Below, one piece after another: positions 289 to 63,995 of a stretch of DNA of 64,000 bases. Position 1 is the first letter of the stretch, and each line of letters starts with the position of its first letter. A program made the position numbers and the translations under genes. Below the pieces are notes generated by a model. That model made no database searches and was not told the origin of the DNA. It saw only the letters and a list, made by a program, of their open reading frames with translations. This stretch comes from Ferruginibacter sp. HRS2-29 (GTDB lineage: Bacteria > Bacteroidota > Bacteroidia > Chitinophagales > Chitinophagaceae): positions 1 to 64,000 of the forward strand of contig NZ_RJUB01000123.1 of NCBI RefSeq assembly GCF_024343615.1, read 5' to 3'.

Positions 289-466
289 ATTAATTACGAA
301 TTAACAATTACGAATTACGAATGAGTTCATTCAGGTGAAAGATATTAATTGCAAAACCTTTCTATAACTTGCACTGCCAAAAATCAATTCGTAATTCGTA
401 ATTCGTAATTCGTAATTCGTAATTCGTAATTCGTAATTCGTAATTCGTAATTCGTAATTCGTAATT
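289..466. repeat. Heptad inverted repeat (aattacg / attcgta)
   Basis: The gap between two convergent genes is nearly all repeat. The left arm (about 291-322) is made of aattacg-type heptads. The right arm (387-463) is 11 perfect head-to-tail copies of the reverse complement, attcgta. The arms can pair, with a spacer of about 65 bp between them. The same word family recurs at 27540-27635 and 52736-52831. Confidence 0.9.
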
Positions 467-469
467 TCC

Positions 470-1171
470 TTACTTACTAAATACCTTATCGTCTACCGGA
501 ATATTCGTCTCGATGGTGCTATACAGGATCGTTCCGCGATCATTGGTTACACTGTACGGGAACCAATATCCACCGGCATTTTGTTTATAGTCTGCAAATA
601 AAAGTCCTTCTATTTTTTCTTCTCCATTTGCGGTAACGGCAGCTTTTGTTTTTGCTACGCGATAAGTATTTTTATCTATGAAATAATTCATCGTCTTGCC
701 ATTTTTATATGTAACCAGTAAATTCCAGGTATCGGCTCCCTCAACTTTTTCAGTACCTTTCAATTCTATCGCGATCCCTTTTTCTTTGTAATCAACAAAT
801 GGCCCCTGCAGGTCGAACAACACCTGTTTGGATGTTAATAACGAAGGTTCCATCGCTACCGGTTCCTCCATACGAAAGATCGGGAAGAACGTCCAACCTT
901 CTTTATTATTAGCTACTTCGTAGTTGGAAGTACCCATTACTTCGATATCATTGCGGCTCCCTATGTTGTGCGACCTGGTACCCACGATAGATACATCGGC
1001 ACCATTTACGCTCATACCACCGGTCAGTTTCACCGTTTTCAACATGAGCATTTTTTCTTTTCCGCCCATAGCATCCATATGTTTAGCTACGATCTCATCT
1101 ACGGTTTGTGCAGAAAGATTGATGGTCAAAAAAGAGATGACGGTAGTCAGTAACAGTTTGAAAAAATTCAT
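470..1171 (-). CDS. Secreted LolA-like / outer-membrane lipoprotein-sorting-like protein
   Basis: A 233-residue protein with a clear N-terminal signal peptide (MNFFKLLLTTVISFLTINLSA, cleavage near SAQ). The mature part starts VDEIVAKHMDAMGGKEKM, a pattern common in Bacteroidota periplasmic proteins annotated as outer-membrane lipoprotein-sorting (LolA/LolB-like) proteins; the rest looks beta-rich. An upstream in-frame start at 1273 would add 34 charged residues before the signal peptide, so the internal ATG at 1171 is preferred. It diverges from adenine deaminase and converges on trmD. The substrate is unknown, and the LolA-like fold is an inference from the general pattern. Confidence 0.6.
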   Translation of the reverse strand: MNFFKLLLTTVISFLTINLSAQTVDEIVAKHMDAMGGKEKMLMLKTVKLTGGMSVNGADVSIVGTRSHNIGSRNDIEVMGTSNYEVANNKEGWTFFPIFRMEEPVAMEPSLLTSKQVLFDLQGPFVDYKEKGIAIELKGTEKVEGADTWNLLVTYKNGKTMNYFIDKNTYRVAKTKAAVTANGEEKIEGLLFADYKQNAGGYWFPYSVTNDRGTILYSTIETNIPVDDKVFSK

Positions 1172-1285
1172 AGTATTCGTTTTATGATGATGCGTATGTA
1201 TGCCTGATAAAGATATATTTTTTAGTTCAGATATTCTTTTTGCAAAATTAACTTTTACCTTGTGCCTGTACATAAAAAAACAGCA

Positions 1286-2917
1286 ATGTCAGCAGCAACT
1301 ATCAACGGGAATATAGTATCAATCATTGAAAAAAGGATCTTCTTCGGGGAAGTGACGATAGAAAACGGGAACATCGTCTCCATTATGGAACTGGGGGGAG
1401 AAAAAGCCGGCGAAAGCTATATTCTTCCCGGGTTCATCGATAGCCATGTGCATGTGGAAAGCAGCATGCTGGTACCTTCGGAGTTTGCCAAGCTTGCCGT
1501 TGTACATGGCACCACGGGTACCATCAGCGATCCGCACGAAATTGCCAATGTATGCGGAATGGAAGGGGTGAAATATATGATCGCGAATGGCAAAACTGTC
1601 CCTTTCAAATTTCATTTTGGTGCACCGAGCTGCGTGCCGGCCACAGTTTTTGAAACGGCAGGCGCTGCGCTTGACGCGGATGCGGTGGATGAATTATTGT
1701 CGTTGCCCGACATCAGCTACCTCAGTGAAATGATGAACTTTCCGGGTGTGCTGCACAACGATCCCGAAGTGATGAAAAAAATTGCTTCGGCAAAAAAATA
1801 CAACAAGCCTGTAGATGGCCATGCGCCAGGCTTACGGGGTGAAACCGCCAAACAATATATAGATGCGGGCATCAGCACCGACCATGAATGTTTTACGGCT
1901 GAAGAGGCATTGGACAAACTTGGATATGGCATGAAAATATTGATCCGTGAAGGGAGCGCTGCTAAAAATTTTGAAGCGTTGATCGGCCTGATGAATGAGC
2001 ATTATGAAAACATGATGTTTTGCAGCGATGACAAACATCCCGACAGCCTGGTAGAAGGCCATATCAATCTTTTGTGTGAAAGGGCGGTGTCAAAAGGGAT
2101 CGATGTTTTTAAAGTGTTGCAGGCGGCCTGCATCAATCCTGTGCTGCATTATAAGATGAGCAACGGCTTGTTGCAAAAGGGAGATGCTGCAGATCTGATC
2201 GTGGTGAAAGACCTGAAGAAATTCCAGGTAACGCATACCTATATCGATGGGCAACTGGTGGCTGAAAATGGAAAATCTTTAATCACTACCAAACCTGCGG
2301 AGGTGATCAATGAATTCAACTGTGATAAAAAAACGATCAGTGACTTTGCGGTTCCCGCGAACGATCTGCAGAAAGAGATCCCGGTGATCGAAGCGCTGGA
2401 AGGGCAACTGATCACGAACAAACTGATGCTTGAGCCAAGCGTTGCCGATGGGCAGATCATCAGTGATCCTACGCGGGATATTTTGAAGATCGTGGTGGTG
2501 AACCGCTATAATAATGCGCCCGTGGCGAAAGCGTTCATCAAAAATATCGGGTTGAAAGAAGGCGCCATCGCTTCTACTGTTGCGCACGACAGCCATAATA
2601 TTGTAGCAGTAGGTGTGGATGATGACAGTCTTTGCGAAGCAGTAAACTTACTGGTAACACAACGGGGAGGCGTAAGCGCAGTTTCGGAAGAAAAAATGAT
2701 GGTGCTCCCGCTTCCGGTTGCCGGATTGATGAGCAATGAAGACGGATACAAAGTGGCGGCAGATTACACCGCGATAGATGCATTTGTAAAAGAAAGGCTG
2801 GGAAGCGGACTGGCCGCACCTTTCATGACATTATCCTTCATGGCATTGCTGGTGATACCGCATTTGAAACTGAGCGATAAGGGGCTTTTTGATGGAGACG
2901 AGTTTAAATTCGTATAA
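1286..2917 (+). CDS. ade: Adenine deaminase
   Basis: Converts adenine to hypoxanthine and ammonia in purine salvage. It belongs to the amidohydrolase superfamily Ade family, and at 543 residues it has the usual length. Metal-binding motifs are in order: HVHVESS near residues 54-60, DPHEIANV near 82-89, DGHAPGLRG near 177-185 and DDKHPD near 249-254. The C-terminal half holds the family's DSHN and GLMS segments. The ATG at 1286 is preferred over a GTG at 1262 because it gives the normal N terminus. Its TAA stop is the first copy of a taatgga repeat word. Together with upp nearby it suggests nucleobase salvage, though the genes are not an operon. Confidence 0.95.
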
Positions 2918-3025
2918 TGGATAATGTAATAATTGATAATGGATAATGTTTTAGGCGTATCTGATTTTCTGCTATTTCACAGCACTTACGAGTGGAAGAC
3001 ATTGTTCATTATAACATTATCCATT
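2914..3025. repeat. Heptad inverted repeat (taatgga / tccatta)
   Basis: Between convergent genes. The left arm of taatgga-type words starts inside the ade stop codon. A 13-bp perfect match pairs 2938-2950 with 3013-3025. The same word family occurs at 39739-39812 and 63268-63391. Confidence 0.85.
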
Positions 3026-3028
3026 GAT

Positions 3029-3445
3029 TCAAAACTTCGCCGATAGCACTTTTATCGCCACACTATCCGTGCCCTTGGGGGCAAAATATTTTGTCTTGAA
3101 ACTTTTGCTGCCACCCGGCTCTACGGTTTCATAGATGGTTTCATGGTCTTCTTCAAGAAGGGCGCCGGTTTTGCTGTAGAAAGATAATTTAAGGTCTACA
3201 TCCTTATAGGAAACGATTTTTGCACTGTTGAATAAATTGCCTTTTATTACTGTCTGTCCCAGGAGATTGCGTTTATCCGAGCCCGTTACTTTAATAAACC
3301 GTTCCGGATTTTTTTGTTCGGTTACCGACAACTCTTCTTTAGTGCTTTCATATTTATCCTTCGCTTTCACATCGTATTTATTGTTGCTGGTACAGGCAAA
3401 GACCAGTATGGAGGCGCTGAGAAAAAGAACAGGCAATCGTTTCAT
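3029..3445 (-). CDS. Hypothetical lipoprotein
   Basis: A 138-residue protein with a lipoprotein signal (MKRLPVLFLSASILVFAC, lipobox cysteine at 18), so probably membrane-anchored on the periplasmic side. The mature part reads as a small beta-sandwich: NLLGQTVIKGNLFNSAKIVSYKDV followed by LKLSFYSKTGALLEEDHETI resembles the FxLYD/extracellular-domain style, but I cannot name the family. A longer start at 3487 would put 14 residues before the signal, so 3445 is chosen. It is transcribed towards ade and diverges from upp. Confidence 0.6.
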   Translation of the reverse strand: MKRLPVLFLSASILVFACTSNNKYDVKAKDKYESTKEELSVTEQKNPERFIKVTGSDKRNLLGQTVIKGNLFNSAKIVSYKDVDLKLSFYSKTGALLEEDHETIYETVEPGGSKSFKTKYFAPKGTDSVAIKVLSAKF

Positions 3446-3514
3446 ATAACTGAATTTGGGGTGGGTTTGTAAAAAAGACATAACCAAAAATAAAGATACT
3501 GCGCTATTTTATTA

Positions 3515-3522
3515 TAGATTTG
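3515..3522 (+). promoter_or_regulatory. Candidate -7 element for upp
   Basis: TAGATTTG fits the Bacteroidota TAnnTTTG -7 consensus. It lies 63 bp before the upp ATG, implying a leader of roughly 55-60 nt. No clear TTTG -33 box is visible upstream. Confidence 0.4.
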
Positions 3523-3585
3523 TCGGCAGGAAAAGAAATTTAACTTATCGTTGCCGCAGGCTACATTCGAACAAAACAAAAACAG

Positions 3586-4236: not shown

Positions 4237-4407
4237 GTTTAGAGAACAGGGTTTAGGGGTTTAGGGCTTTAGAATATTCATGGGTTTGGATTGAAGGAGA
4301 ATCTTTGTTCGCTTCCATCTAAACCTTTTGTTTTTTAATATTTCCGTATAGTTTAAAAATTTCTACTATAACAAACCTTCCTACCCCTGATCCCTGTTCT
4401 CTAAACT
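4236..4407. repeat. Heptad inverted repeat (tttagag / ctctaaa)
   Basis: A perfect 16-bp inverted repeat: AGTTTAGAGAACAGGG at 4236-4251 pairs with its complement at 4392-4407. Further tttaggg-like words follow the left arm. It lies between two co-directional genes, directly after the upp stop. Related words occur at 26461-26516, 50525-50626 and 51961-52052. Confidence 0.85.
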
Positions 4408-4519
4408 AATTAATAACCAGCCAATTGGCATTCCTTCCACTGTTAGCAAAAACTTTTGGCCAATTCGTGCAGCATTTTACCTCATTTCCTTATCTTTAAT
4501 GCCTAAGAACTGTTTAGAA

Positions 4520-5533: not shown

Positions 5534-5535
5534 CT

Positions 5536-5701
5536 TTATTACACGAATTAAAGCGAATTACACGAATTAGCGAAGATTAAATAATTAGATTAAATGACAA
5601 ACCCCACAGAAGTGGGGTTTGTCATTTAAAAGGTGGGCTACTTATAAAGCGGTCAACCTTTAAACCGTAATTCGTGTAATTCGCTTTAATTCGTGTAATA
5701 A
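5536..5701. repeat. 34-bp perfect inverted repeat (acacgaatt family)
   Basis: The arm at 5536-5569 pairs without mismatch with 5668-5701. The words are attacacga and attaaagcga, with a 9-10 bp period. The inner 98 bp holds a separate terminator hairpin (5591-5628). It fills the gap between two convergent genes. Confidence 0.95.
5591..5628. terminator. Bidirectional terminator-like hairpin
   Basis: A perfect 17-bp stem TAAATGACAAACCCCAC with an AGAA loop. The GC-rich core is flanked by A/T tracts on both sides, so it can serve the PorP-like gene and the glycosylase gene that converge on it. Confidence 0.85.
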
Positions 5702-5706
5702 AAAAA

Positions 5707-6318: not shown

Positions 6319-6320
6319 AT

Positions 6321-6437
6321 GTCAATAGTGAATAGTCAATAGTCAAGCCTTCGAAGTTAATTCGTTTTATATAAAGTCTTTTCTGTCTGTAGTATAAAGT
6401 TCAGAGGTTTGACTATTGACTATTCACTATTCACTAT
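6321..6437. repeat. Heptad inverted repeat (atagtca / tgactat)
   Basis: A 23-bp perfect arm at 6324-6346 pairs with 6409-6431, built from 7-bp atagtga/atagtca words. It sits between divergent genes, so it lies in both 5' regions, unlike the convergent cases. The spacer contains CTTCGAAG, a short palindrome that recurs in other spacers. Confidence 0.9.
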
Positions 6438-6447
6438 CTTTATTCCC

Positions 6448-7218: not shown

Positions 7219-7226
7219 CCTCCATC

Positions 7227-7931
7227 ATGACGACAATCTACCTGATACCTTGTGTGCTCGCCGACGACGCTTTAGAAACCATTCCTCCATACATCATGGA
7301 TGCGGTAAAAAAATGCACGGTGATATTTGCAGAAAACGAACGCACGGCGAGGCGTTTTTTGAAAAGTATGGACAAAAGCATCGTCATCGACGACTACGAA
7401 TGGTATGCCATACATAAAGCTGAAGAAGAGCAGCTGCAACATTTCAGGCAAAAAATAAAGGAGAAAAAAACGATCGCGATCATCAGTGAAGCGGGCTGCC
7501 CCGGCATTGCCGACCCCGGGCAAATACTGATCAAAGCTGCACAGGAACTGAATTGCCTCGTAAAACCGCTTGTTGGGCCAAGTTCCATCTTACTGGCGCT
7601 GATGGCGAGTGGCATGAGCGGACAACAATTTGAATTTACCGGCTATCTTCCTATCGATAATGCTGAAAGAATAAAAAAACTGAAAGAACTGGAACTTGCT
7701 TCGCAAAAACACAACAGCACTAAGATCTTCATTGAAACTCCTTACCGCAATAACCAGCTGCTGGAATCCATCATCAAGACCTGCGATGGAAAAACGAAAT
7801 TATGCATCGGTGTAAATATCACCGCTCCAAATGAAAGCATTCAGACACACACCGTTTGCGAATGGAAAAATAAAAAGCCGGAGCTTCATAAGCAACCGGC
7901 TATATTCCTGCTCTACGCAGGAAATCTATGA
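7227..7931 (+). CDS. RsmI-like tetrapyrrole-methylase-fold SAM methyltransferase
   Basis: A 234-residue protein with the fold of RsmI, the 16S rRNA C1402 2'-O-methyltransferase. The N terminus TTIYLIPCVLADDALETIPP replaces the usual RsmI LYVVATPIGN start, while FAENERTARRFL, ISEAGCPGIADPGQ, VGPSSILLALMASG and the FTGYLP segment match the family. It is shorter than typical RsmI (about 270-290) and lacks the C-terminal domain, as does a second paralogue seen in many Bacteroidota, so the substrate may differ. The start at 7227 is 8 bp after the preceding stop. Its TGA stop lies in a repeat word. Confidence 0.8.
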   Translation: MTTIYLIPCVLADDALETIPPYIMDAVKKCTVIFAENERTARRFLKSMDKSIVIDDYEWYAIHKAEEEQLQHFRQKIKEKKTIAIISEAGCPGIADPGQILIKAAQELNCLVKPLVGPSSILLALMASGMSGQQFEFTGYLPIDNAERIKKLKELELASQKHNSTKIFIETPYRNNQLLESIIKTCDGKTKLCIGVNITAPNESIQTHTVCEWKNKKPELHKQPAIFLLYAGNL

Positions 7932-8040
7932 TCTACGATGTATGATCTATGATACCTTTAATAAGTCAGTGTGTTTAATTATCGAAGACCTTCGAATTGA
8001 AGAAACCATAGATCATAGATCATCCATCTCAGATCATAGA
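7928..8040. repeat. Heptad inverted repeat (gatctat / atagatc)
   Basis: Between convergent genes. The perfect 12-bp arms are at 7942-7953 and 8012-8023, inside longer 7-bp word runs. The left arm begins in the stop codon of the methylase gene. The spacer again holds CCTTCGAA. Confidence 0.8.
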
Positions 8041-8041
8041 T

Positions 8042-8464: not shown

Positions 8465-8477
8465 ATGAATACTTTTT

Positions 8478-8636
8478 TATTACACGAATTTAAAATCGAA
8501 TTACACGAATTACCTTAATTGGAATGCAACTTATACAACTTCCGGTTCTCTTATGACCTTCGAATATTTCACTATTCACTATTCACCATTCACTATTCAC
8601 CATTCACTATTCACCATTCACTATTCACCATTCACA
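8478..8636. repeat. Mixed-word repeat: acacgaatt left arm, ttcacta right arm
   Basis: The left side (8478-8513) carries attacacgaatt words. The right side (8566-8636) is about ten 7-bp ttcacta/ttcacca words, and its end supplies the TGA stop of the peptidase gene. The two sides are not complementary to each other. The identical mixed pairing occurs at 61222-61366. Confidence 0.85.
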
Positions 8637-11241: not shown

Positions 11242-11358
11242 ATGTATGATGTGAAATGTATGATGTATGATTTCTTCAAATTTGAAGTTCGTTGTATCCA
11301 TGCATAAGTCTTACAATCCGAAAGACATCATACATCTTACATCAAAGATCATACATTG
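11240..11358. repeat. Heptad inverted repeat (gatgtat / atacatc)
   Basis: Between convergent genes. Words gatgtat and aatgtat on the left; catacat, cttacat and catacat on the right, all in 7-bp register. A perfect 11-bp core pairs 11256-11266 with 11325-11335. The family recurs at 38908-39023. Confidence 0.85.
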
Positions 11359-11361
11359 CAT

Positions 11362-19924: not shown

Positions 19925-19930
19925 TATTGA

Positions 19931-19957: not shown

Positions 19958-19969
19958 GCCTATACTTTG

Positions 19970-20057
19970 CCGGGAAGACAGGAAGAAAAATAAATTCCTT
20001 CCTGTCTTCCCGGTATTATTTTATGTTCCTGAAATTTTTTCTTCCCGTCTTCCCGGC
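19970..20057. repeat. GC-rich inverted repeat between gldJ and murF
   Basis: A perfect 16-bp stem CCGGGAAGACAGGAAG (19970-19985) pairs with 19998-20013. A third, direct copy of the right arm (cttcccgtcttcccggc) follows at about 20041-20057, 20 bp before the murF start. The polarity matches the other intergenic repeats. Confidence 0.85.
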
Positions 20058-20077
20058 AAAAAAATTACTTTTGAAAT

Positions 20078-21535: not shown

Positions 21536-21563
21536 TAGTTTTGAGTATTATCAATGCCCCCGT

Positions 21564-21612
21564 CAACCATCAACCATCAACCATCAACCATCAACCTTCA
21601 ACCTTCAACCTC
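21564..21612. repeat. 7-bp tandem repeat (caaccat/caacctt)
   Basis: About seven head-to-tail 7-bp words. It enters the 3' end of the DUF3817 gene and encodes its last residues, Val-Glu-Gly, and the TGA stop. Confidence 0.85.
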
Positions 21613-21900: not shown

Positions 21901-22021
21901 AAAGTGAATGGTGAATAGTGAAACCGCCGAAGTTTGTAAATAGTTCTGGAAGGCTTATAAAATTGCAAGATCATATTTAACCTTCGCGAATTCCTGCCTG
22001 TTGCGGAGCAAAATTGTGGCT

Positions 22022-23596: not shown

Positions 23597-23604
23597 GAGG
23601 CAAA

Positions 23605-23752
23605 TTAGAATTAATAATTAATAATGTGTAATTAATAATTGCCTTACCCCTCAGGATGCTCCAACACCAATAAAAATGCAGTTTACAAAGTAATAGTTAC
23701 TCTATAAACTGCATTCCCCATTTCAATTCTTAATTCTTAATTCTTAATTCAA
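23605..23752. repeat. Heptad inverted repeat (attaata / aattctt)
   Basis: The left block (about 23605-23642) has attaata words and the right block (about 23724-23750) has aattctt words, both in 7-bp register. The right block gives the TGA stop of the downstream-coordinate lipoprotein gene. It lies between two co-directional minus-strand genes. Confidence 0.8.
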
Positions 23753-24777: not shown

Positions 24778-24910
24778 AAAGGTTCAAAAGGTTCAAGAGT
24801 TCAACGGTTCAATGTTTGCGCCCCCCAACCTCCTGAACCTTTTGAACCTTTGAACCGTTGAACTCTTGAACTGGTGAACCTTTGAACTTTCAACCATCAA
24901 CCTTCAACTT
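24778..24910. repeat. Inverted repeat (ggttcaa / ttgaacc)
   Basis: A perfect 22-bp arm at 24791-24812 pairs with 24850-24871, with further 7-9 bp words outside. It is followed by caaccat/caacctt words up to the gltX promoter. It lies in a divergent gap, upstream of both genes. Confidence 0.9.
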
Positions 24911-26455: not shown

Positions 26456-26460
26456 TTTTA

Positions 26461-27526: not shown

Positions 27527-27539
27527 GGACTTAAAAATA

Positions 27540-27635
27540 CAAATTACGAATTACCAGCGAGTAATAAGGTAATCATTCGCAGAAAGCTTAAATTGCATTT
27601 CATAACTGTAATTCGTAATTCTTAATTCTTAATTA
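27540..27635. repeat. Heptad inverted repeat (aattacg / attcgta, attctta)
   Basis: The left arm acaaattacgaattacc and the right arm gtaattcgtaattctta plus attctta words fill the divergent gap. The same word family is found at 289-466. Confidence 0.8.
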
Positions 27636-34511: not shown

Positions 34512-34521
34512 ACCGTTTAAC

Positions 34522-34670
34522 GTTCAAGAGGTTTAAAACGTTCAAAAGGTTCAAAAGGTTGTGACATTTTGAACCTTTTAAACCTTTTAAACCTTTTAAA
34601 CCTTTTAAACCTTTTGAACGTTTTAAACCTCTTGAACATTTTGAACCTCTTGAACCTCTTGAACTTTAAA
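34522..34670. repeat. 28-bp perfect inverted repeat with 9-bp words (gttcaaaag / ccttttgaac)
   Basis: The arm at 34522-34549 pairs without mismatch with 34610-34637. The inner right part holds about four ccttttaaa copies and the outer part has more cttgaac words up to the next gene. It lies between convergent genes. Confidence 0.95.
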
Positions 34671-34675
34671 ACCTT

Positions 34676-38907: not shown

Positions 38908-39023
38908 TCGATGTATGATGTGAGATGTATGATGTATGATATTTTTTAAGAGAACGTACTAGTTACAAAATGCAAGTCCTTTCAACCGAAAGAAATCATA
39001 CATCTCACATCATACATCATACA
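38908..39023. repeat. Heptad inverted repeat (gatgtat / atacatc)
   Basis: A perfect 23-bp arm at 38911-38933 pairs with 38995-39017, in 7-bp words. It lies between convergent genes and has the same word family as 11240-11358. Confidence 0.95.
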
Positions 39024-39025
39024 TT

Positions 39026-39735: not shown

Positions 39736-39743
39736 CAAAGATA
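39736..39743 (-). promoter_or_regulatory. Candidate -7 element for lspA
   Basis: TATCTTTG on the minus strand, 12 bp before the lspA ATG. It merges into the edge of the adjacent repeat arm. Confidence 0.45.
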
Positions 39744-39812
39744 ATGGTAATTGATAATGGTATAATGGATAATGCCAGCCGAACATTATGCATTATACAA
39801 TTATCCATTATT
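39739..39812. repeat. Heptad inverted repeat (gataatg / cattatc)
   Basis: Left words gataatg, gtaattg, ataatgg; right words cattatg, cattata, caattat, ccattat, in 7-bp register. It fills the gap between the MurF-Alr fusion gene (ending) and lspA (starting) on the minus strand. Confidence 0.85.
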
Positions 39813-50124: not shown

Positions 50125-50526
50125 ATGCTAAAAGTTGAACATATCGGCATCGCCGTAAAGGATTTTGCAAATGCCGTTCCATTATTTGAAAAGCTGCTGA
50201 ATAGTCAGTGTTACAAGACAGAAATGGTGGAATCGGAGCAGGTGAATACCGCTTTTTTTGCGCAGGGCGAAACCAAGATAGAGCTTGTGCAAAGCCTGAC
50301 GGAAGACGGCGTGATTGCCCGCTACATCGAAAAAAAGGGAGAAGGCATCCATCATATCGCTTTCGAAGTGGAAGATATTCATGCGGAAATGGCGCGCCTG
50401 CAGCAGGAAGGATTCATTTTGCTCAACGAAACACCGAAAAAAGGCGCCGATAACAAACTGGTGTGCTTTTTACATCCCAAATCGACGAATGGGGTATTGG
50501 TGGAATTATGCATGGAAATAGTTTAG
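50125..50526 (+). CDS. mce: Methylmalonyl-CoA epimerase
   Basis: A 133-residue vicinal-oxygen-chelate fold enzyme that epimerises (2R/2S)-methylmalonyl-CoA between the mutase and carboxylase steps. MLKVEHIGIAVKDFANAVPLFEKLL is the family start with metal His7; GIHHIAFEVEDI supplies a second His (near 75), and the C terminus NGVLVELCME has the metal Glu. The start at 50125 is chosen over a GTG at 50116. With the B12-binding subunit at 26520 it points to methylmalonyl-CoA metabolism. The gene is isolated between repeat blocks. Confidence 0.92.
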   Translation: MLKVEHIGIAVKDFANAVPLFEKLLNSQCYKTEMVESEQVNTAFFAQGETKIELVQSLTEDGVIARYIEKKGEGIHHIAFEVEDIHAEMARLQQEGFILLNETPKKGADNKLVCFLHPKSTNGVLVELCMEIV

Positions 50527-50626
50527 AGATTAGGGTTTAGAGATTAGGGTTTAATAGGGTCTCACGCACTAAACCCTAATCTCTGATCTCTAAACTTCTA
50601 CTCAACACTCATCTCTAATCTCTAAA
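50525..50626. repeat. Heptad inverted repeat (tttagag-attaggg / ccctaat-ctctaaa)
   Basis: Words tttagag and attaggg on the left pair with ctaaacc, ctaatct and ctgatct on the right. It fills the gap between two co-directional genes, the epimerase and the histidine kinase. Confidence 0.9.
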
Positions 50627-50628
50627 CC

Positions 50629-51981
50629 ATGCTCAGCATCACCACCAGCATCAACCTTCTCTGCCTTGGTGCCTGCATCCTTGCAACGGCCTATCATTCG
50701 GTGCTGTATACCTACTACCGCGATAAATTGTTGCTGCATTACGTGCTGTATCTCGCGTTCATGAGCGTTTTTATTTTTATCCGCAGTGATCTTTACGGGT
50801 TGCTTTTTGGCCAGCCGGCTGCTGACAAAACGCATTTTCTTTTCAATGAAGGGTTGCAGGTCATCTATTTTACCCTCTATATAAATTTCGGCGCCCATGC
50901 CGTGGAAGTACCTCGGATAAAGGGCTCGTTCGTGTATAAAGGCTGGGTATTCCTGAGTTTTGTATTGCTGGGATATGCTACATCCGTCATCCTTTTGCAT
51001 GCCAATAACATCGTGTTACCGGTTCATTTTTTTGTGGCCATCCGCATCTTCATCCTTGCGATGAGTTGTGTGCTTTTGTGGCGTACTTATATGCTCAAAG
51101 TATCGGTGTTTCAACGGTGGATATTGTGGGGGTGCATCTATTTCCTGGTGTGCGGGCTCATGAGTTTTATCACCAACATCATTCCGGGGCAGCAACTTAT
51201 TTTTTATCCCCTGGAATGGTTGCAGATCGGCAATTTCGGCGAGATCTTATTTTTTTCCTCCGCCATGGGCTACCGCCTGAAAAAGGTGAATGATGAACGT
51301 ACATTGGCACTCAACCAGGCGCAGCAACTAAGGTTTGAAAAGACAAATGCCGTGATACAGACCCGGCTCGAAGAACGCAACCGCATTGCCCACGATATGC
51401 ACGACGACCTGGGAAGTGGCCTCACCAAGATCGCCATCCTGAGCGAAGTGGCCAAAACACAACTCATGCAGCCCGAAAAAGCCAGGGTACAACTGGAAAG
51501 CATCGCTGTTTCTTCCCGCGAACTGGTAGACAGTCTCCAGGATATCATCTGGATCCTCAACCCCAAAAATGACACACTAGAGAGTCTGGCTTCCTACATC
51601 CGTGAGTATGCACTTAAGTTTTTTGAACCTACGGAAACAGTCGCTGTATTTGATTACCCGGATGAAATAGTGGATACAAAGCTTACAGAAGAGCAACGCC
51701 GCAATCTTTTTCTCGCGGTAAAAGAAACACTTAACAATACCGCCAAATATGCGCAGGCGGGCAAACTGAATATCCTGCTGTCGCAAACAAATGAGAAGAT
51801 CCGTTTTGTCATAACCGATGATGGCAAAGGGTTTGACGTAAACAATACCCGTTCATTCGGCAACGGACTACAAAACATGCAGGAAAGGATGAAACGGGCG
51901 AACGGGGTCTTTTTGATCAACTCCGAATATGGAAAAGGAACTGTGGTAACTCTGGAGATAAGTTTAGAGTTTAGAGTTTAG
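50629..51981 (+). CDS. Sensor histidine kinase (7TM-DISM type, HisKA_3)
   Basis: A 450-residue membrane kinase. The N-terminal half has seven predicted helices (about 5-220) in a 7TM-diverse-intracellular-signalling pattern without a periplasmic domain. Next comes HisKA_3 with the phosphoacceptor His in RNRIAHDMHDDLGSGLT near residue 258, then the HATPase_c domain (LFLAVKETLNNTAKYAQAG, ITDDGKGFD, FGNGLQNMQERM, GTVVTLEI). The residues SLEFRV and the stop are read from tttagag repeat words. The partner response regulator is the next gene. The sensed signal is unknown. Confidence 0.9.
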   Translation: MLSITTSINLLCLGACILATAYHSVLYTYYRDKLLLHYVLYLAFMSVFIFIRSDLYGLLFGQPAADKTHFLFNEGLQVIYFTLYINFGAHAVEVPRIKGSFVYKGWVFLSFVLLGYATSVILLHANNIVLPVHFFVAIRIFILAMSCVLLWRTYMLKVSVFQRWILWGCIYFLVCGLMSFITNIIPGQQLIFYPLEWLQIGNFGEILFFSSAMGYRLKKVNDERTLALNQAQQLRFEKTNAVIQTRLEERNRIAHDMHDDLGSGLTKIAILSEVAKTQLMQPEKARVQLESIAVSSRELVDSLQDIIWILNPKNDTLESLASYIREYALKFFEPTETVAVFDYPDEIVDTKLTEEQRRNLFLAVKETLNNTAKYAQAGKLNILLSQTNEKIRFVITDDGKGFDVNNTRSFGNGLQNMQERMKRANGVFLINSEYGKGTVVTLEISLEFRV

Positions 51982-52052
51982 GGTTTAGAGGAAGTCTAGA
52001 GATTTTAGTTTAGATGGTTAGTTGGTTCGACCTTCTAAACCCTAAACCCTTC
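51961..52052. repeat. Heptad repeat (agtttag / ctaaacc) at the kinase 3' end
   Basis: agtttag words from 51961 overlap the last codons of the kinase; the right arm ccttctaaaccctaaaccc (about 52030-52048) is in 7-bp register. Confidence 0.85.
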
Positions 52053-52736: not shown

Positions 52737-52831
52737 TTACGAATGATCAATTACAAATTACGAATGGAGGACTTTATAAGCCTGATGACTTTCTTTGTGA
52801 AGGTTTTCATTCGTAATTAGTAATTTTTAAT
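52736..52831. repeat. Heptad inverted repeat (aattacg / attcgta)
   Basis: Left words aattacg, aatgatc, aattaca, aattacg; right words attcgta, attagta. It lies between convergent genes, and the MBL gene takes its last codon and TAA from it. Confidence 0.85.
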
Positions 52832-57122: not shown

Positions 57123-57139
57123 TTGATGTTATAAAATTT

Positions 57140-57175: not shown

Positions 57176-57410
57176 TGGCCTGTATATTTCCTTTATTACA
57201 AATCGTACCTACGGAACAACATGATATTTTCAAACCTGTACCGGAAGGAGATCGTTCAGGTTACTTTTAAAATACACCCTGGCTGCGTGAATAGGCAATA
57301 AGTGAATGAATCAAAGAATTAAATTTACATATCTCCGGAAAACTTTCACAACTAATCACTAACCCCTACCCCATAAACCCTCTCCGTAGATACGGCTTGT
57401 ACAAACGGAT

Positions 57411-58441: not shown

Positions 58442-58450
58442 ATTTTAAAT

Positions 58451-58930: not shown

Positions 58931-58982
58931 TGTTTTATTATTTATTATTTAATTGTTTTATCGTTCACCCCTGTAAGGATCA

Positions 58983-60875
58983 TCACTGATCGGTTGTCGG
59001 TGGTTGGTTGTGATTGATCTGTCGTCCGTCGTCTGCATTCGCTCCGTACCAATTGATCCGCCTGCTTGCAAACATCACCAGCGACAGCACGATGAACAAA
59101 CCGATGCTTCCTACCAGCAACGCAGTATCTTCCAGGCTGATGAGGATGAATATGAATCCATAAAGGCAACCAAGTAGGGTGAAGAAAATCCCGCCCGTTT
59201 TCCAACTGTTGAAGTGTGCCTTTGCATAAAAACTGATGAGCAGTACCGTAGCCAGTGAAGCTATGATGTAGGCATGATTGAACAGGATATATTCGCTGAT
59301 GGATAATAACAATGTGTAAAATATCACAAGTGCAAGTCCTACCAAAACATACTGCACCGGGTGAAAAGGTTTCTTTTGCATCAGCTCTATGATGAAGAAG
59401 AAGGCAAAAGTGAGGCCGATGAACAGGATCGCATATTTTACGCTCCTCATGGTTTTGTCGTACTGATCGGCTGTCTGTACAAGGCTTACACCAAATTCCA
59501 TACTTTTAACCTGGGCCGAATTCGTTTTCATCACTTTTGCAAAAGGAAGGTTCGCCTGGTTAAAATTCCAGCTGGCAACAAAACCGCTATCGGAAATTTT
59601 CCTTTCGCCGGGTAAAGATTCTCCATTGAAAGATGCATTGGGCCACGCGGAACTCAATGTGTATTTACTGGCTGCAGCCAATGGCGTAAAATGCAGTTCT
59701 TCACTGCCTTTTATTTTTACCTGCATGGAAAATGGCATGCTGCCTGCCATCTGTTCCGCGGTCAGACTAACGGGAACGGATAGCCCAATATTTCCAAAAT
59801 CATCCACAGGCAAACCCGGGCTCATCAGTAGTTTCTGCCCGTTGAAATTCACATATATCTCTTCTTCGATCCCTTTGAAATCGCTCAGTGTAAAACAAAG
59901 CCTTGCATTGGCATAATCGACGTTGGCTGCCTGAATATCCTGCGGCAGGCTTACTTTGAAGGAGCCGGCAAAACTGATATCTGTTTTATAAAGCAATACT
60001 TTATAGATCGATCTCGGACGTTGTTCAGGAATTATTTTCCCATTCACATTCAGATCATTTGCCAGCAGTAAAAGCTTTGTTTTGTTAGCAACGGCCTTGC
60101 CTTCACTATTGACAAATGTATCTGTATAGGGTACTACTAAAAACGGAGCCGAAAGTGTTTGAGCATTCGCCCATTTGCTGCTGACTTCTTTCACCACTTC
60201 TTTTTGCCTTTTCTCCCTCTCGGAAATGAGGCTGTTGATAAATACGGTCGGGATAAGCATCAGCAGGATCAGCCCACCCGTTACTAAGCCTTTGATGAGG
60301 ATACGGTTGGGTTGATTGGACGCAGGAACAGGGTTGGGTGGTGTGGAATACGAAGTTTCCATGATGGTGTGTGTTTTAGATGTGTTATGAAAAAGAGTCT
60401 GACTGATAAATTGAAAGGAATCATCCGGTGCGGTATTGTCATACAGGTAATTAAAAATGCGCTTTGCAAGTAAAACAGCTGCCAGCAATGCGCTGCCAAA
60501 TAGTACACCTATTACAATCACCATTGTTTCAAAAAAAGCCAGGTGGCCGGATCCATAGAATATATCTGAAATGACACTCGCTGATGCACCGAGCAATGCA
60601 TAAGGTAGCGTTACCAGGAGAAGAAGTGCCAGCAGGCTGAAGCATCGTACCTGTATCGAAGAAAATATTCTTTTGATGAACTTTAAAGTTAAAACAAGGG
60701 TGATCAAAACCGGGGTCCTGCAGATGAGTGTCACCACGAATATTATCACAGGTACCCCAAGGTTGAAGTCGTGGGCATTTATCGACAGGCAAACATTGAT
60801 GACCAGGGCCGTAAAAAAGGCTGTCAATACCCATATCCTTGCAGAGGTACCTAATGTTGAATATTCTTTTTTCAT
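58983..60875 (-). CDS. CreD-like inner-membrane protein with N-terminal extra membrane domain
   Basis: A 630-residue protein. Residues 1-171 form a separate four-helix region (MKKEYSTLGTSARIWVL onwards). A Met at 60362 (METSYSTPPNPVPASNQPNR) then begins a full CreD-type protein of 459 residues: LMLIPTVFINSLISEREKRQ, VVPYTDTF, a beta-rich periplasmic middle, then five or six helices (KPFHPVQYVLVGLALVIFYT). CreD is associated with envelope integrity. The last 18 residues (NADDGRQINHNQPPTTDQ) are written in a gacggac/ggacaac repeat. The 60875 start keeps the two parts fused; internal initiation at 60362 is possible. Confidence 0.8.
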   Translation of the reverse strand: MKKEYSTLGTSARIWVLTAFFTALVINVCLSINAHDFNLGVPVIIFVVTLICRTPVLITLVLTLKFIKRIFSSIQVRCFSLLALLLLVTLPYALLGASASVISDIFYGSGHLAFFETMVIVIGVLFGSALLAAVLLAKRIFNYLYDNTAPDDSFQFISQTLFHNTSKTHTIMETSYSTPPNPVPASNQPNRILIKGLVTGGLILLMLIPTVFINSLISEREKRQKEVVKEVSSKWANAQTLSAPFLVVPYTDTFVNSEGKAVANKTKLLLLANDLNVNGKIIPEQRPRSIYKVLLYKTDISFAGSFKVSLPQDIQAANVDYANARLCFTLSDFKGIEEEIYVNFNGQKLLMSPGLPVDDFGNIGLSVPVSLTAEQMAGSMPFSMQVKIKGSEELHFTPLAAASKYTLSSAWPNASFNGESLPGERKISDSGFVASWNFNQANLPFAKVMKTNSAQVKSMEFGVSLVQTADQYDKTMRSVKYAILFIGLTFAFFFIIELMQKKPFHPVQYVLVGLALVIFYTLLLSISEYILFNHAYIIASLATVLLISFYAKAHFNSWKTGGIFFTLLGCLYGFIFILISLEDTALLVGSIGLFIVLSLVMFASRRINWYGANADDGRQINHNQPPTTDQ

Positions 60876-60884
60876 TTTAAAAGC

Positions 60885-60901
60885 ACTTTGTTTTTCAAAG
60901 T
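60885..60901. promoter_or_regulatory. Candidate operator 1 (ACTTTG-N5-CAAAGT)
   Basis: A perfect 6-5-6 palindrome, ending 9 bp before the CreD-fusion ATG. An identical 17-mer in opposite orientation occurs at 62004-62020. On the minus strand the shared block continues GTGCTTTTA. Confidence 0.6.
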
Positions 60902-60917
60902 ATAAATACAAAAAAAA

Positions 60918-61214
60918 TTATTTTGTAGAACGGATCATTTTTTCCAATGCTTCAATGTGCGCTTTGAATACTTTTTCACCTGCTTTGGTAATGGCATAAG
61001 TGGTGTTTGTTTTTCGGCCGATAAAGCCTTTATTGACTTTGATGATATTATTTTCTTCCAATGCCTTCAGGTGGCTGGCGAGGTTGCCATCCGTGATCTC
61101 CAGCAACTCTTTCAGCTCATTGAAATTCACCGCATCGTTCACCATGAGTGCGCTCATGATGCCGAGCCGAACACGGCTATCAAAAAGTTTATTTAAGTTG
61201 TTGATCGGATTCAC
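60918..61214 (-). CDS. Winged-helix transcriptional regulator (ArsR/PadR-like)
   Basis: A 98-residue one-domain regulator: LFDSRVRLGIMSALMVNDAV, NFNELKELLEITDGNLASHLKALEENN (recognition helix region, near 30-57) and wing TYAITKAGEKVF. It matches the short winged-helix group that sits with CreD-like or membrane genes in Bacteroidota. The start is a GTG at 61214. A palindrome in front of each of its two neighbours is the likely target. It sits between the CreD fusion (42-bp gap) and the membrane protein gene. Confidence 0.9.
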   Translation of the reverse strand: MNPINNLNKLFDSRVRLGIMSALMVNDAVNFNELKELLEITDGNLASHLKALEENNIIKVNKGFIGRKTNTTYAITKAGEKVFKAHIEALEKMIRSTK

Positions 61215-61221
61215 TTACTTT

Positions 61222-61366
61222 TTATTACACGAATTTTATCGGATTACACGAATTCGCGAAGGTTAATTATCAAATTTGTGGGCTTTAACACTCTCAAAGA
61301 ATGTATAAACTTCGAAGGTTTCACCATTCACCATTCACTATTCACTATTCACTATTCACTATTCAC
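61222..61366. repeat. Mixed-word repeat: acacgaatt left arm, ttcacta right arm
   Basis: The left side (61222-61255) holds attacacgaatt words and the right side (about 61321-61366) holds 7-bp ttcacta/ttcacca words which provide the final Ser-Glu and TAG of the membrane protein gene. The sides do not match each other; the same unmatched combination is at 8478-8636. The spacer holds CTTCGAAGG. Confidence 0.85.
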
Positions 61367-61997
61367 TTCTTTCATATTTATACCACATATATGTTCCGTA
61401 CAAAATATGCAACACCCCAAAACCCAGTGCCCAGAAGTACAACCCATATCCTACAAATAAAAGATTGATGAGGCCCACTATGATCTGGCAATAGCCAAGG
61501 TATCGTATTTCATCGAGTGTGTATTTGCTGGCGTTGATCAGCGCAAGTCCGTAAAACAACAGGCATCCCGGGGCTACAAGCCCGAAAGTGCCAAACTGCA
61601 GCAACTTGAGTAAGAATATACCGCCCACAATCAAAGGGATACTAACGTTGAAGAGTAAACGCTTTGCTGTTTTACCCCAGATTGGAATACCTTCCTTTTT
61701 ACTTTTCAGATACGTAAAGATAAAGGCGGTGATCAGGGCGGCAAAAAAAGTTCCCGCCGCTATCCAGAATAACCAGGTATTGAACAACACTTCTATCCCG
61801 GGATGAAAATCTTTATGGATATCTATGAACAGGGGGCGACAACCAAAAACATAAGGATACGCCAGCCACGCTCCTATCAATGCACAGATACCGGCACTGA
61901 TACCACTAAGCCCGCTAAGGCTGATAAAACGGCTGCTGCGTTCCATCATCCTCTTGATGTCCTGCAGGGTTTCTAAAGATTGATCATGTTCGGTCAT
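61359..61997 (-). CDS. Hypothetical membrane protein
   Basis: A 212-residue membrane protein: MTEHDQSLETLQDIKRMMERSSRFISLSG (soluble N terminus), then six predicted helices between about 30 and 205, with LSGISAGICALIGAWLAYP near 30-48 and YALINASKYTLDEIRYLGYC-type loop. Family unknown to me, but it pairs with a short winged-helix regulator here, as such proteins often do. The start at 61997 avoids a longer frame that reads the candidate operator. Its last two codons and stop come from repeat words. Confidence 0.7.
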   Translation of the reverse strand: MTEHDQSLETLQDIKRMMERSSRFISLSGLSGISAGICALIGAWLAYPYVFGCRPLFIDIHKDFHPGIEVLFNTWLFWIAAGTFFAALITAFIFTYLKSKKEGIPIWGKTAKRLLFNVSIPLIVGGIFLLKLLQFGTFGLVAPGCLLFYGLALINASKYTLDEIRYLGYCQIIVGLINLLFVGYGLYFWALGFGVLHILYGTYMWYKYERSE

Positions 61998-62003
61998 AAA
62001 AGC

Positions 62004-62020
62004 ACTTTGAAAAACAAAGT
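62004..62020. promoter_or_regulatory. Candidate operator 2 (ACTTTG-N5-CAAAGT)
   Basis: A perfect 6-5-6 palindrome, ending 6 bp before the start of the membrane protein gene. Same sequence as operator 1 in reverse orientation, with shared GTGCTTTTA flank on the minus strand. Confidence 0.6.
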
Positions 62021-62062
62021 AAATCTTTAAAATCCACATCCGCAAATAAATAAGGGGAAATT

Positions 62063-63244
62063 TTAAAGATTATCGAGGATTCGCAGGATCGTATTGCAGG
62101 CATCGGAAATTTCTTCTTCACTGATGTTTAACGGAGGTACGATACGAAATGCATTGGCCGCAAAAAGGAACCAGTCGGTAAAAACGCCTTGCTCTATCAG
62201 CAGGTCGATGACTTTCTTGTTGGTTTCAAAACTGTCAAACTCAACCGCCATCATCAAGCCATGGCTGCTGATATTCTGGATGGCTTTGTGTTGCAAAAGG
62301 TTGCGAAAAAGCTTTTCTTTTCCAGGAACCGTATCGATCATTTTTTCCTCCAGCAACACCTGCATGCCCGCCAGGCCGGCAGCACAGCTGACCGGGTGGC
62401 CGCCGAAAGTATTGATATGCCCCAGCACGGGATTGTTGGTAAATGAATCCATGATCTTTTTATCTGAAACGAATGCGCCCAATGGCATACCGCCACCCAA
62501 TGCTTTGCCAAGTAATAAGATATCTGGTACCACATCAAACTGCTCAAAAGCCCATAACGAGCCGTTGCGCCCGAAGCCACATTGTATCTCATCCAGCACC
62601 AGTAAAGTTCCTGTGGCTGTACATCGTTCCCGCAATGCTTTCATCCAGCCATCTTTCGGTGCTATCACGCCGGCTTCGGCCTGAATGGTTTCGGCCACCA
62701 CGCATGCTGTACGCTCCGTGATATTTTCAAGGCCTTCGAAATTATTATAGCACAGTTGCATCGTATCCGGCAACAACGGACGGAAAGCCTGCTGCCAGTA
62801 TTCGCTACCCATGATGCTGAGTGCGCCTTGTGTGCTTCCGTGGTAAGAATTTTTGAAGGAAATGATCTGTGTGCGGCCGGTATAACGTTTGGCCAGCTTC
62901 ATAGCACCTTCTGTAGCTTCTGCCCCGCTTGCCGTATAAAATACGGCATTGAGCGATGAAGGCAAATGCTCCGTAATGAGTTTTGCGTACTGCACCTGCG
63001 GGTTTTCAATAAACTCTCCGTATACCATGATGTGGAGGTATTCGTCTACCTGCTTCTTAATCGCTTCCACCACTTTCGGATGCCGGTGCCCGATATTGCA
63101 GACACTGATGCCCGCTATCAGGTCGATGTATTCCTTTCCCTCCGCATCCCACATTTTGCTACCCGAAGCTTTTACTATATTCAGGCACAGGGGAGCTGCG
63201 GAAGTTTGTCCTACATGGTTCAAAAAAAGCTGACGAAGGTTCAT
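62063..63244 (-). CDS. Class III PLP aminotransferase (acetylornithine/GABA aminotransferase family)
   Basis: A 393-residue class III aminotransferase. Visible: YIDLIAGISVCNIGHRHP near residues 39-56, FYTASGAEATEGAMKLAKRYTG near 104-125, VVAETIQAEAGVIAP near 192, LLVLDEIQCGFGRNG near 222-236 with the metal-like Asp for PLP, and the PLP Lys in LLGKALGGGMPLGAFVSD near 256. The substrate cannot be told from motif alone; acetylornithine, GABA or lysine epsilon-transaminases are all in this family. It diverges from the carbonic anhydrase gene. Confidence 0.88.
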   Translation of the reverse strand: MNLRQLFLNHVGQTSAAPLCLNIVKASGSKMWDAEGKEYIDLIAGISVCNIGHRHPKVVEAIKKQVDEYLHIMVYGEFIENPQVQYAKLITEHLPSSLNAVFYTASGAEATEGAMKLAKRYTGRTQIISFKNSYHGSTQGALSIMGSEYWQQAFRPLLPDTMQLCYNNFEGLENITERTACVVAETIQAEAGVIAPKDGWMKALRERCTATGTLLVLDEIQCGFGRNGSLWAFEQFDVVPDILLLGKALGGGMPLGAFVSDKKIMDSFTNNPVLGHINTFGGHPVSCAAGLAGMQVLLEEKMIDTVPGKEKLFRNLLQHKAIQNISSHGLMMAVEFDSFETNKKVIDLLIEQGVFTDWFLFAANAFRIVPPLNISEEEISDACNTILRILDNL

Positions 63245-63249
63245 GGCTG

Positions 63250-63257
63250 CAAAATTA
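63250..63257 (-). promoter_or_regulatory. Candidate -7 element for the aminotransferase
   Basis: TAATTTTG on the minus strand fits TAnnTTTG and lies 5 bp before the ATG, again a leaderless geometry. Confidence 0.4.
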
Positions 63258-63267
63258 ATGCTTAGTT

Positions 63268-63391
63268 TTGAGTAATGGATAATGGTATAATGGATAACGG
63301 ATAATGATCTTCCGGATCTTATATCTTTCGGTAACCGAAAAACTTTCAGACGGGAAAATTATCCATTATCAATTATAAATTATCAATTATC
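63268..63391. repeat. Heptad inverted repeat (taatgga / attatcc)
   Basis: Left words taatgga, taatggt, ataatgg; right words attatcc, attatca, attataa, attatca, exactly in 7-bp register. The right arm ends directly at the carbonic anhydrase ATG. It lies between divergent genes. Confidence 0.9.
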
Positions 63392-63904
63392 ATGAGTATA
63401 ATTCTTCCTGTAAAAGGTATTCTCCCCATCATGGGTGAAGATTGTTTTGTAGCCCCGAATGCCACTATTGTCGGCGATGTGGTGATGGGCGATCAGTGCA
63501 GCGTATGGTTCAATGCGGTGATAAGGGGCGATGTGAACAGCATCCGCATGGGAAATAAGGTAAATGTTCAGGATGGCGCTGTTATTCACTGCACTTATGA
63601 GAAAACCAAGGCCATCATCGGAAATAATGTTAGCATCGGACACAATGCAATCGTACATGGATGCGTTATAGATGACAATGTTCTTATCGGGATGGGCTCC
63701 ATAGTAATGGATAATGTGCATGTCGGGAGCAATAGTATAGTGGCCGCCGGGGCAGTAGTGCTTGAAAATACGGTGATTGAGCCGGGTTCGATATACGCCG
63801 GGGTACCCGCCAAAAAGGTGAAGGATATCAGCCAGGAACTGATCCGCGGGGAAATCAACAGGATTGCAGATAATTACCTTAAATACAGCGGATGGTTTAA
63901 ATAG
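63392..63904 (+). CDS. Gamma carbonic anhydrase family protein
   Basis: A 170-residue left-handed beta-helix protein of hexapeptide repeats. Metal His ligands: NVQDGAVIHCTYEK near 56-69 and SIGHNAIVHGCVIDDNVLIG near 78-97, matching gamma carbonic anhydrase-like proteins (YrdA type) that hydrate CO2 or act as paralogues without activity. FVAPNATIVGDVVMGDQCSVWFN is the typical N-terminal coil. A C-terminal helix follows. The TAG stop is the first codon of a tagtgaatgg repeat word. Confidence 0.9.
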   Translation: MSIILPVKGILPIMGEDCFVAPNATIVGDVVMGDQCSVWFNAVIRGDVNSIRMGNKVNVQDGAVIHCTYEKTKAIIGNNVSIGHNAIVHGCVIDDNVLIGMGSIVMDNVHVGSNSIVAAGAVVLENTVIEPGSIYAGVPAKKVKDISQELIRGEINRIADNYLKYSGWFK

Positions 63905-63995
63905 TGAATGGTCAATAGTGAATAGTCAACCCTTTAAAGGGTACAGGTTTGTCGAAAGTTTTTGCCCTTTGCCTATTGCCCATTGTCTATTGGTC
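63902..63995. repeat. Heptad inverted repeat (atagtga / tattgcc)
   Basis: Left words agtgaat, ggtcaat, agtgaat, agtcaac and right words ctattgc, ccattgt, ctattgg in 7-bp register. Starts in the carbonic anhydrase stop codon and runs to the window edge. Confidence 0.8.

Follow-up and report, generated by a model that had tools for sequence, protein, structure and literature searches.

Heptad-armed inverted repeats in the intergenic DNA of a Ferruginibacter genome: possible REPIN-like mobile doublets

Short tandemly repeated repetitive (STRR) sequences of cyanobacteria are heptamer tandem repeats. TAACTGA heptamers form direct repeats of a single word, most of which lie immediately before a start codon; the main genome studied has 169 such sets and a single indirect repeat. 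They also occur in five Bacteroidetes, and in some of these genomes other heptamers share the gap (MacGregor 2015, PMC4679880). REPINs, which are doublets of repetitive extragenic palindromic (REP) sequences, are short repeats paired in inverted orientation around a spacer that is less conserved; they are extragenic, present in hundreds of copies and divided into three groups in the studied strain (Bertels and Rainey 2011, PMC3116915). GTAG- and CGTC-tagged REPs are single extragenic palindromes of 20-40 bp, the CGTC type being found in Bacteroidetes, and GTAG REPs often supply the stop codon of flanking open reading frames; bacterial miniature inverted-repeat transposable elements (MITEs) are non-coding, 70-300 bp long and bear terminal inverted repeats (PMC3733652). 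Here, we analyzed the first 64 kb (the window) of contig C123 from an uncultured Ferruginibacter metagenome-assembled genome (5.07 Mb, 161 contigs), in which many intergenic gaps carry inverted arms built of tandem heptamers. We favour, at roughly even confidence, a reading in which these elements form several REPIN-like families of non-autonomous mobile repeats that spread as inverted doublets and are copied in trans by a putative enzyme; it is favoured because of copying within families, an excess of doublets, one tight centre length, gaps longer than those of relatives and a patchy spread.

A first-pass annotation had described heptad inverted repeats in the intergenic DNA of the window, and our analysis revealed that they are real. 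In a first genome sample (724 kb, 389 gaps), intergenic autocorrelation at lags 7, 14 and 21 was.304,.299 and.288, whereas the remaining lags between 5 and 30 gave.262-.283 and coding DNA gave.244 at lag 7. Lag-7 runs of at least 10 were present in 16% of these gaps and 0.00 of simulated gaps, and an inverted-repeat score of at least 36 was reached by 40% of 62 convergent, 19% of 64 divergent and 25% of 212 tandem gaps but by no shuffled gap. Within the window, where arrays were listed by Tandem Repeats Finder and arms by an inverted-repeat scan, 23 of the 42 gaps of 60-450 bp bear an arm (score at least 28), an array or an inverted repeat (at least 26); features of other kinds account for the gaps at 19925 and 47114, and a weak single arm for that at 26456. 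Gap edges are approximate because genes were called with a purpose-written codon-score script, and gaps outside the ranges used (60-450 or 40-600 bp) were dropped. Word families recur at distant loci as annotated: AATTACG at 292-466, 27531-27632 and 52749-52825, TAATGGA at 2918-3023, 39748-39810 and 63273-63389, and GATGTAT at 11242-11356 and 38910-39018. The longest perfect arms measured 35, 30, 24, 23 and 22 bp, near the 34, 28, 23 and 22 bp first reported, and the combination of one shared 7-bp period with diverse words also held for the sampled genome.

We composed 17 family consensus strings in inward orientation after inspecting the arms; because certain families are siblings of one another, the counts per family depend on each other. 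The heptad families are AATTACG, TAATGGA, GTGAATA/GTCAATA, GATGTAT, GATCTAT, TTAATAA, GTTGAAG, TTTAGRG, AATTAAG and GGATGCT, and the longer-word kinds are ACACGAATT, GGTTCAAAAG, CGCAGATT, CGCAGAG, AAATAAG and CGCAAAG. In the main heptad families the consensus arm spans about 32-38 bp, with four to five degenerate heptads followed by an inner tail. Non-repeating parts include the inner tail AAAYCTTCGAAG of the GTGAATA family; the second unit of the TAATGGA arm is 8 bp long, and the second word of GATGTAT and AATTACG is often a variant. Since arms of one family share a consensus together with its non-repeating parts, copying is indicated. The earlier suggestion of a common process rather than the copying of one element therefore stands in so far as there are several families, but not within families, where the 32-38 bp consensus is copied. 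An enlarged sample (1.51 Mb, about 30% of the genome), used for the genome counts below, contained 467 inward and 103 outward arms in 736 gaps, compared with 1 and 1 after shuffling, and 275 elements with an inverted repeat of at least 30 (medians: arm 30 bp, centre 22 bp, total 104 bp). Arm GC content was 0.275. Of 219 inverted repeats (CTGTCAGCC family excluded), 187 had a purine-rich and 23 a pyrimidine-rich 5' arm, and inward-strand GC skew was positive in 15 of 16 families, ACACGAATT being about neutral. Two candidate features of the arms were rejected. Stop codons in all frames, as a cause of the period of 7, were not general (1.94 frames inward, 1.59 outward, 1.94 shuffled), with AATTACG and GTTCAAAAG running the opposite way; a mini-hairpin at the inner ends of arms was found in 103 of 339 cases versus 104 after shuffling, CGCAGATT being a family that does possess one.

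The claim that the arms match at each locus was upheld in part. Arms of the same family occupied 140 of the 736 gaps, but 37 held arms of different families and 113 a single arm; 446 had none. Same-family pairs thus made up 140 of 177 two-armed gaps (79%, versus 9.9% under independence), and 84 inward pairs were counted among 286 arms of four families. Sibling words explained six of the 37 different-family pairs (three GATCTAT/GATGTAT, three AATTAAG/AATTACG). A hybrid of GTGAATA and ACACGAATT was found 10 times, with the GTGAATA arm at the upstream stop codon in seven of eight tandem-gap cases. Mismatched arms in the window lie in gaps 8465-8631 and 61215-61358 (ACACGAATT with TTCACTA) and 23597-23748 (AATTAAT with AATTCTT), and one-armed gaps also occur there.

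These pairing data bear on local generation, in which slippage would build arrays and hairpin template switching would copy an array across, making mobility unnecessary. We regard this explanation as unlikely, although partner arms do resemble each other: private departures from the consensus were shared by AATTACG partners in 27 of 108 cases (0 of 1000 permutations as high) and by AATGGAT (TAATGGA family) partners in 27 of 200 (6 of 1000 permutations), and an arm's own partner scored above the mean of the family's other right arms in 93 of 122 elements. Also in its favour are loci whose arms surround a hairpin unrelated to them (14 of 76 centres versus 3 shuffled, with nested examples) and stepwise array drift in another genome (locus L238). 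However, sharing beyond that of re-paired arms was significant in only these two of five families (low-score pairs were left out, so that 23 of 28 AATTACG pairs were used), and therefore local generation is not a general rule. The recurrence of non-repeating arm parts at different loci, the repeated hybrid combination and the presence of AATTCGT across genera, its reversed control not recurring (TAATGGA behaving less sharply), also argue against it. At L238 (genome G405, about position 1996), a single array shifts stepwise from AATTACG through AATTAAG to AATTGAG units, a record of word drift.

The first-pass annotation had proposed a comparison of orthologous gaps, and this analysis revealed that element-bearing gaps are longer than their counterparts. 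Seven such window gaps with at least 15 orthologous rows were 42 to 137 bp longer than the median of their rows: 2918 (111 versus 35.5 bp, 16 rows), 4237 (376 versus 243, 35), 5534 (173 versus 62, 18), 6319 (129 versus 87, 35), 7932 (110 versus 6, 32), 8465 (167 versus 30, 15) and 11242 (120 versus 10.5, 40). In contrast, seven element-free gaps differed by -73 to +6 bp: 3446 (140 versus 183, 17 rows), 7219 (8 versus 8, 59), 9958 (165 versus 238, 31), 12667 (122 versus 121.5, 30), 13536 (85 versus 100, 30), 16538 (238 versus 259, 56) and 17760 (602 versus 596, 44). The gap at 19925, which holds an inverted repeat of another family, measured 153 versus 103 bp (33 rows). Some genomes are counted twice in these rows (e.g. 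G004 and L088). One relative (L086) carries a related heptad inverted repeat in the gap orthologous to the 6321..6437 element. Against the relative G059, 27 element-bearing gaps had a median of 200 versus 159 bp, and 12 of the 27 were also element-bearing in G059; 26 element-free gaps had a median of 107.5 versus 103 bp, with two element-bearing in G059 (6 of 59 orthologous gaps, longer than 450 bp, were dropped). The element share of the G059 stretches is biased because they were picked near word hits, as were those of genome G386 and part of those of G070 considered below. At C10:85766 and C10:78039 (contig:position) the two species have different words in a shared gap, and at C10:71680 and C10:95000 arms or words adjoin a different native hairpin in each. 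The G059 orthologues of C10:71680 and C10:94319 are nested palindromes, in which outer CGCAGATT arms enclose a native terminator-like hairpin or a second element.

Most of the same-genus relatives sampled lacked the elements. Inverted repeats of at least 34 occurred in 1 of 85 gaps from five same-genus relatives versus 239 of 784 here, the relatives' loci had few lag-7 gaps, and the AATTCGT array was found in this genome alone among 59, being absent from 58 others (35 of the same genus). The ATTCACT word (two mismatches allowed) was searched in 18 genomes, seven known to be of the same genus and 11 reached via orthologue loci, and was present in nine, with 433 matches here, 22-57 in six and 3-4 in two; its reversed control gave 12 here and at most five in other genomes. 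The genome of Ferruginibacter paludis CECT 8366 had 27 matches and one to the control. Across Bacteroidia, AATTCGT arrays were detected in 24 of 395 genomes including this one, from 22 genera, versus one for the reversed control, and an inverted repeat of at least 34 was present at nine of 20 AATTCGT loci in 10 genomes (five of seven in G386, four of 13 elsewhere). TAATGGA (one mismatch) was found in 11 of 295 genomes including this one, and one genome of another family had 101 matches. Autocorrelation at lags 7, 14 and 21 was.336,.312 and.305 in G386 (38 gaps) and.321,.319 and.308 in G070 (114 gaps), both from other families, so the phenomenon is not limited to this genome; G070 has mainly arrays. 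Inverted repeats of at least 34 occurred in 13 of 38 gaps of G386, 5 of 114 of G070 and no shuffled gap; when genes were called differently the counts were 14 and 5, and the 5' arm was purine-rich in 14 and 3 of them. Eight of the 13 in G386 were judged heptad-armed, with AATTACG as well as its own words GAATTAT and GTAGTTA, and G070 has GTTTCGG.

We also examined the position of the elements relative to genes. For 122 elements assigned to word families there were 132 stop-codon edges, of which 96 were overlapped by an arm (44, after outward repeat extension) or within 5 nt of one (52); a further 21 lay at 6-20 nt and 15 beyond. Among 70 tandem-gap elements, 51 were within 5 nt of the stop codon (18.9 expected) and 10 near the start (18.9 expected). 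This placement would be accounted for by a host device, i.e. a bidirectional 3'-end structure (terminator or mRNA 3' stabiliser) that selection keeps after stop codons and that is read in either direction between convergent genes. Such a device would also account for the frequency of arms at gene 3' edges (287 of 726, versus 180 of 746 5' edges) and for that of arrays or inverted repeats of at least 30 by gap type (convergent, 90 of 142; divergent, 49 of 148; tandem, 189 of 494). It is nevertheless distinctly unlikely in our judgement: no U-tract was seen behind the 3' arm (runs of at least four T in 24 and A-runs in 20 of 244), the relatives' gaps at 7932 and 11242 have only a few bases, elements occur in divergent gaps, arms diverge from the consensus independently in three families, and supplying a stop codon in every frame is not a general role. 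REPIN-like doublets fit better than canonical terminators or local slippage alone.

Centre length had medians of 48.5-56 bp by gap type in the 122 elements and was tight in TAATGGA alone, where 17 of 23 doublets had centres of 47-52 bp; this family also has a symmetric tail, weak and rich in T. A position weight matrix (PWM) of the TAATGGA inner tail carried over to GATGTAT (P = 5.5e-6), GATCTAT (P = 9.1e-5) and GTTGAAG (P = 0.0099), and the pooled motif was significant (P = 0.0028) whereas the reversed motif was not (P = 0.33); plain-shuffle controls had made it appear broader than strict controls did. The high score of CGCAGATT is ascribed to its own hairpin because the reverse-complement PWM scores high too. 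Among heptad-armed centres of at least 25 bp, 8 of 76 matched elsewhere in the sampled 30%, some via array words or duplicated contig ends. MITEs usually have a conserved interior and a target-site duplication. Ordinary MITEs of a DDE-transposase insertion sequence family with terminal inverted repeats would share the inverted arms, small size and intergenic position seen here, but the 122 elements showed no target-site duplication (k = 2-6, 8 and 9) above permuted flanks, the centres are unconserved and the arm families many, making this explanation very unlikely. We consider it more improbable still that the arms are recombinase sites between which the centre flips, as in invertons: inverted arms common to several loci and unique centres would suit invertible segments, but the per-gap frequency is highest in convergent gaps, which need no promoter, and the copies are very many for a switch system. 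A separate family of near-palindromes of about 250 bp has CGCAGATT...CACAGATT arms and a TGCAGTTTATAA...TTATAAACTGCA centre (e.g. C10:81360, C39:65831 and C126:73139), several copies being enclosed by AATTACG-type arms; its centre motif (at most two mismatches) occurred at 102 places genome-wide versus 12 for the reversed control.

The unit consists of two inward-facing arms around a centre that in most cases is peculiar to its locus. If the elements are REPIN-like, this unit would be copied through a hairpin single strand by a trans-acting enzyme without target duplication. Lack of a target-site duplication would suit HUH chemistry, and an HUH-type enzyme is our guess. Heptads may arise and drift through slippage within arms, each doublet would gain a new centre, and elements might be retained where insertion harms least or shields the mRNA 3' end. 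The proposed search for a REP-associated tyrosine transposase (RAYT), made by domain, did not yield a driver: Y1_Tnp matches numbered three here and 0-6 in 35 same-genus genomes, and an expansion of Y1_Tnp was rejected.

Several results weigh against REPIN-like mobility. No cognate RAYT flanked by the heptad repeat was found at the two Y1_Tnp loci read, of three in the genome; these two genes (L208, about 5543, and L209, about 5647) adjoin REP-like hairpins of their own, CGTTCCTACGGAACG and CATGGGTTGCAACCCATG, and at L209 the heptad words GTGAATG and AATTCTT occur on both sides at a distance of several hundred bases, as in many gaps. The reverse transcriptase domain RVT_1 was missing from this genome and present in 4 of 16 genomes searched. 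Unlike those of ordinary mobile elements, 68 of 76 heptad-armed centres had no match in the sampled 30%, no shared k-mer beyond shuffles emerged from 72 centres (those above 130 bp left out), and under strict controls the inner-tail PWM failed in six other heptad families, leaving three of nine clear. GTAG stood at the palindrome foot in 10 of 244 cases versus 13.2 shuffled (CGTC, 1 versus 0.7). Pooled over families, doublet arms outscored single arms (P = 0.0036), but results within individual families were mixed. Element load is graded rather than all-or-none, because some relatives carry ATTCACT (57 matches in G067, 50 in G068), and the spread of TAATGGA is less clear-cut because its reversed control matched 5 of 295 genomes (1-6 matches each). 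The nearest relative compared has a median protein identity of 76%, and the set includes no strain pair.

We also considered, as a doubtful possibility, a new class of dispersed element across Bacteroidia that is driven by neither RAYT nor reverse transcriptase. Its arms would draw on a partly shared heptad vocabulary, generally with a purine-rich 5' arm, whole doublets would be placed at stop codons or existing hairpins with a new centre per insertion, and its enzyme would read periodic words and structure instead of a fixed end. Taken together, unique centres, the purine-strand rule and a set of words that unrelated genera partly share match no mechanism known to us. Extrapolation from the 467 inward arms gives about 1,570 arms genome-wide, so these elements shape much intergenic space and many gene 3' ends, in a genus where most sampled relatives are without such arms. 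What spreads bacterial heptamer repeats becomes a testable question, e.g. in Ferruginibacter paludis CECT 8366.

Table 1. Heptad and related repeat features of the window
Feature	Coordinates	Details
AATTACG element, convergent gap 289-469	292..466	left arm 292-322; 11.6 perfect units in right array 386-466
TAATGGA element, convergent gap	2918..3023	arms 2918-2941 / 3000-3023; array from ~2914, over stop codon
TTTAGAG/GGG element, tandem gap	4237..4406	arms 4237-4260 / 4383-4406
ACACGAATT element	5535..5702	35-bp perfect arms 5535-5569 / 5668-5702; separate inner hairpin 5590-5607 / 5612-5629
GTGAATA/GTCAATA element, divergent gap	6321..6437	23-bp perfect core arms 6324-6346 / 6409-6431
GATCTAT/GATGTAT element, convergent gap	7924..8041	stop codon of 7227-7931 inside first word
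Hybrid, tandem gap	8479..8635	ACACGAATT left arm, (TTCACTA/TTCACCA)n right
GATGTAT element, convergent gap	11242..11356	arms 11242-11276 / 11322-11356
Single (TCAACCA)n array	21563..21610	behind tRNA-Ser and hairpin
Single GTGAATA-type arm	21903..21922	
AATTAAT left / AATTCTT right arm, tandem gap	23604..23750	TGCAGTTTA...TAAACTGCA in centre
GGTTCAAAAG element (8-9 bp words), divergent gap	24778..24883	
AATTACG/AATTAAG element, divergent gap	27531..27634	
GGTTCAAAAG element, convergent gap	34519..34675	30-bp perfect arms 34522-34551 / 34608-34637
GATGTAT element, convergent gap	38910..39024	24-bp perfect arms 38910-38933 / 38995-39018
TAATGGA element, short centre	39740..39811	arms 39748-39774 / 39784-39810
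TTTAGAG/TTTAGGG element	50520..50625	arms 50527-50553 / 50570-50596
TTTAGAG/GGG left array, CTAAACC right words	51961..52050	left 51961-51990, right 52035-52050
AATTACG element, convergent gap	52737..52825	arms 52749-52766 / 52808-52825
Hybrid, tandem gap	61220..61367	ACACGAATT left; (TTCACTA)n right 61320-61367
TAATGGA element, divergent gap	63273..63391	arms 63273-63305 / 63358-63389
GTGAATA left, TTGCCTA/TTGCCCA right arm, window edge	63900..63992	

Ten flanking proteins of the window were scanned and looked ordinary (adenine deaminase, PorP/SprF, methylpurine-DNA glycosylase, CysZ-like, M28 peptidase and GT4 among them), two being without a family. Other repeats were also noted. The inverted-repeat family GCCGGGAAGACGGGAAGA lies at 19966-20060 of the window, C7:21378 and C142:72956, and is visible in seven gaps of an eight-gap cluster. 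A hairpin family, CTGTCAGCCTGAGCTTGTCGAAGGCG (C10 and other contigs, e.g. C10:84747), was in tandem gaps in 15 of 18 cases, divergent in three and convergent in none, and a 13-bp tandem repeat, GGTTGACTACCGC, occurred in eight gaps of a nine-gap cluster (C16:40763, C3:55757, C10:49911 and others).

Searches for a published account gave none: Rfam at gathering scores matched tRNA alone, a text search with arm-word strings returned nothing relevant, the literature covered (mainly outside subscription journals) held no description of these elements, and the cited part of a survey of structural patterns includes no such element (PMC4060949). The elements fail as members of the named families. They resemble MITEs in length (70-300 bp), in terminal inverted repeats and in the lack of coding capacity, but have neither a conserved interior (8 of 76 centres matching elsewhere) nor a target-site duplication. 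They differ from intrinsic terminators in that the stem is not GC-rich (arm GC 0.275) and no U-tract follows (T-runs in 24 of 244). Like tagged REPs they are extragenic palindromes, but the tag is missing here and those REPs are single palindromes of 20-40 bp. Cyanobacterial STRRs had been named as the nearest analogue, and tandem heptamers in intergenic DNA are indeed present as in the STRR definition; the nearest published case that we found is the TAACTGA direct repeats (PMC4679880). Both share with our elements intergenic tandem 7-mers and a patchy occurrence across phyla, but here the repeats form inverted pairs of many words behind stop codons, and no TAACTGA doublet was found in 1.51 Mb. 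The elements differ from REPINs in their arms, which are heptad arrays of about 35 bp and not a compact REP, in their more numerous families, in lacking a GTAG tag, in centres unrelated between loci, in the strong fit to stop codons and in the Y1_Tnp genes examined, which adjoin other hairpins. They resemble REPINs in the over-representation of inverted doublets, copy numbers in the hundreds, the existence of several groups and their extragenic location.

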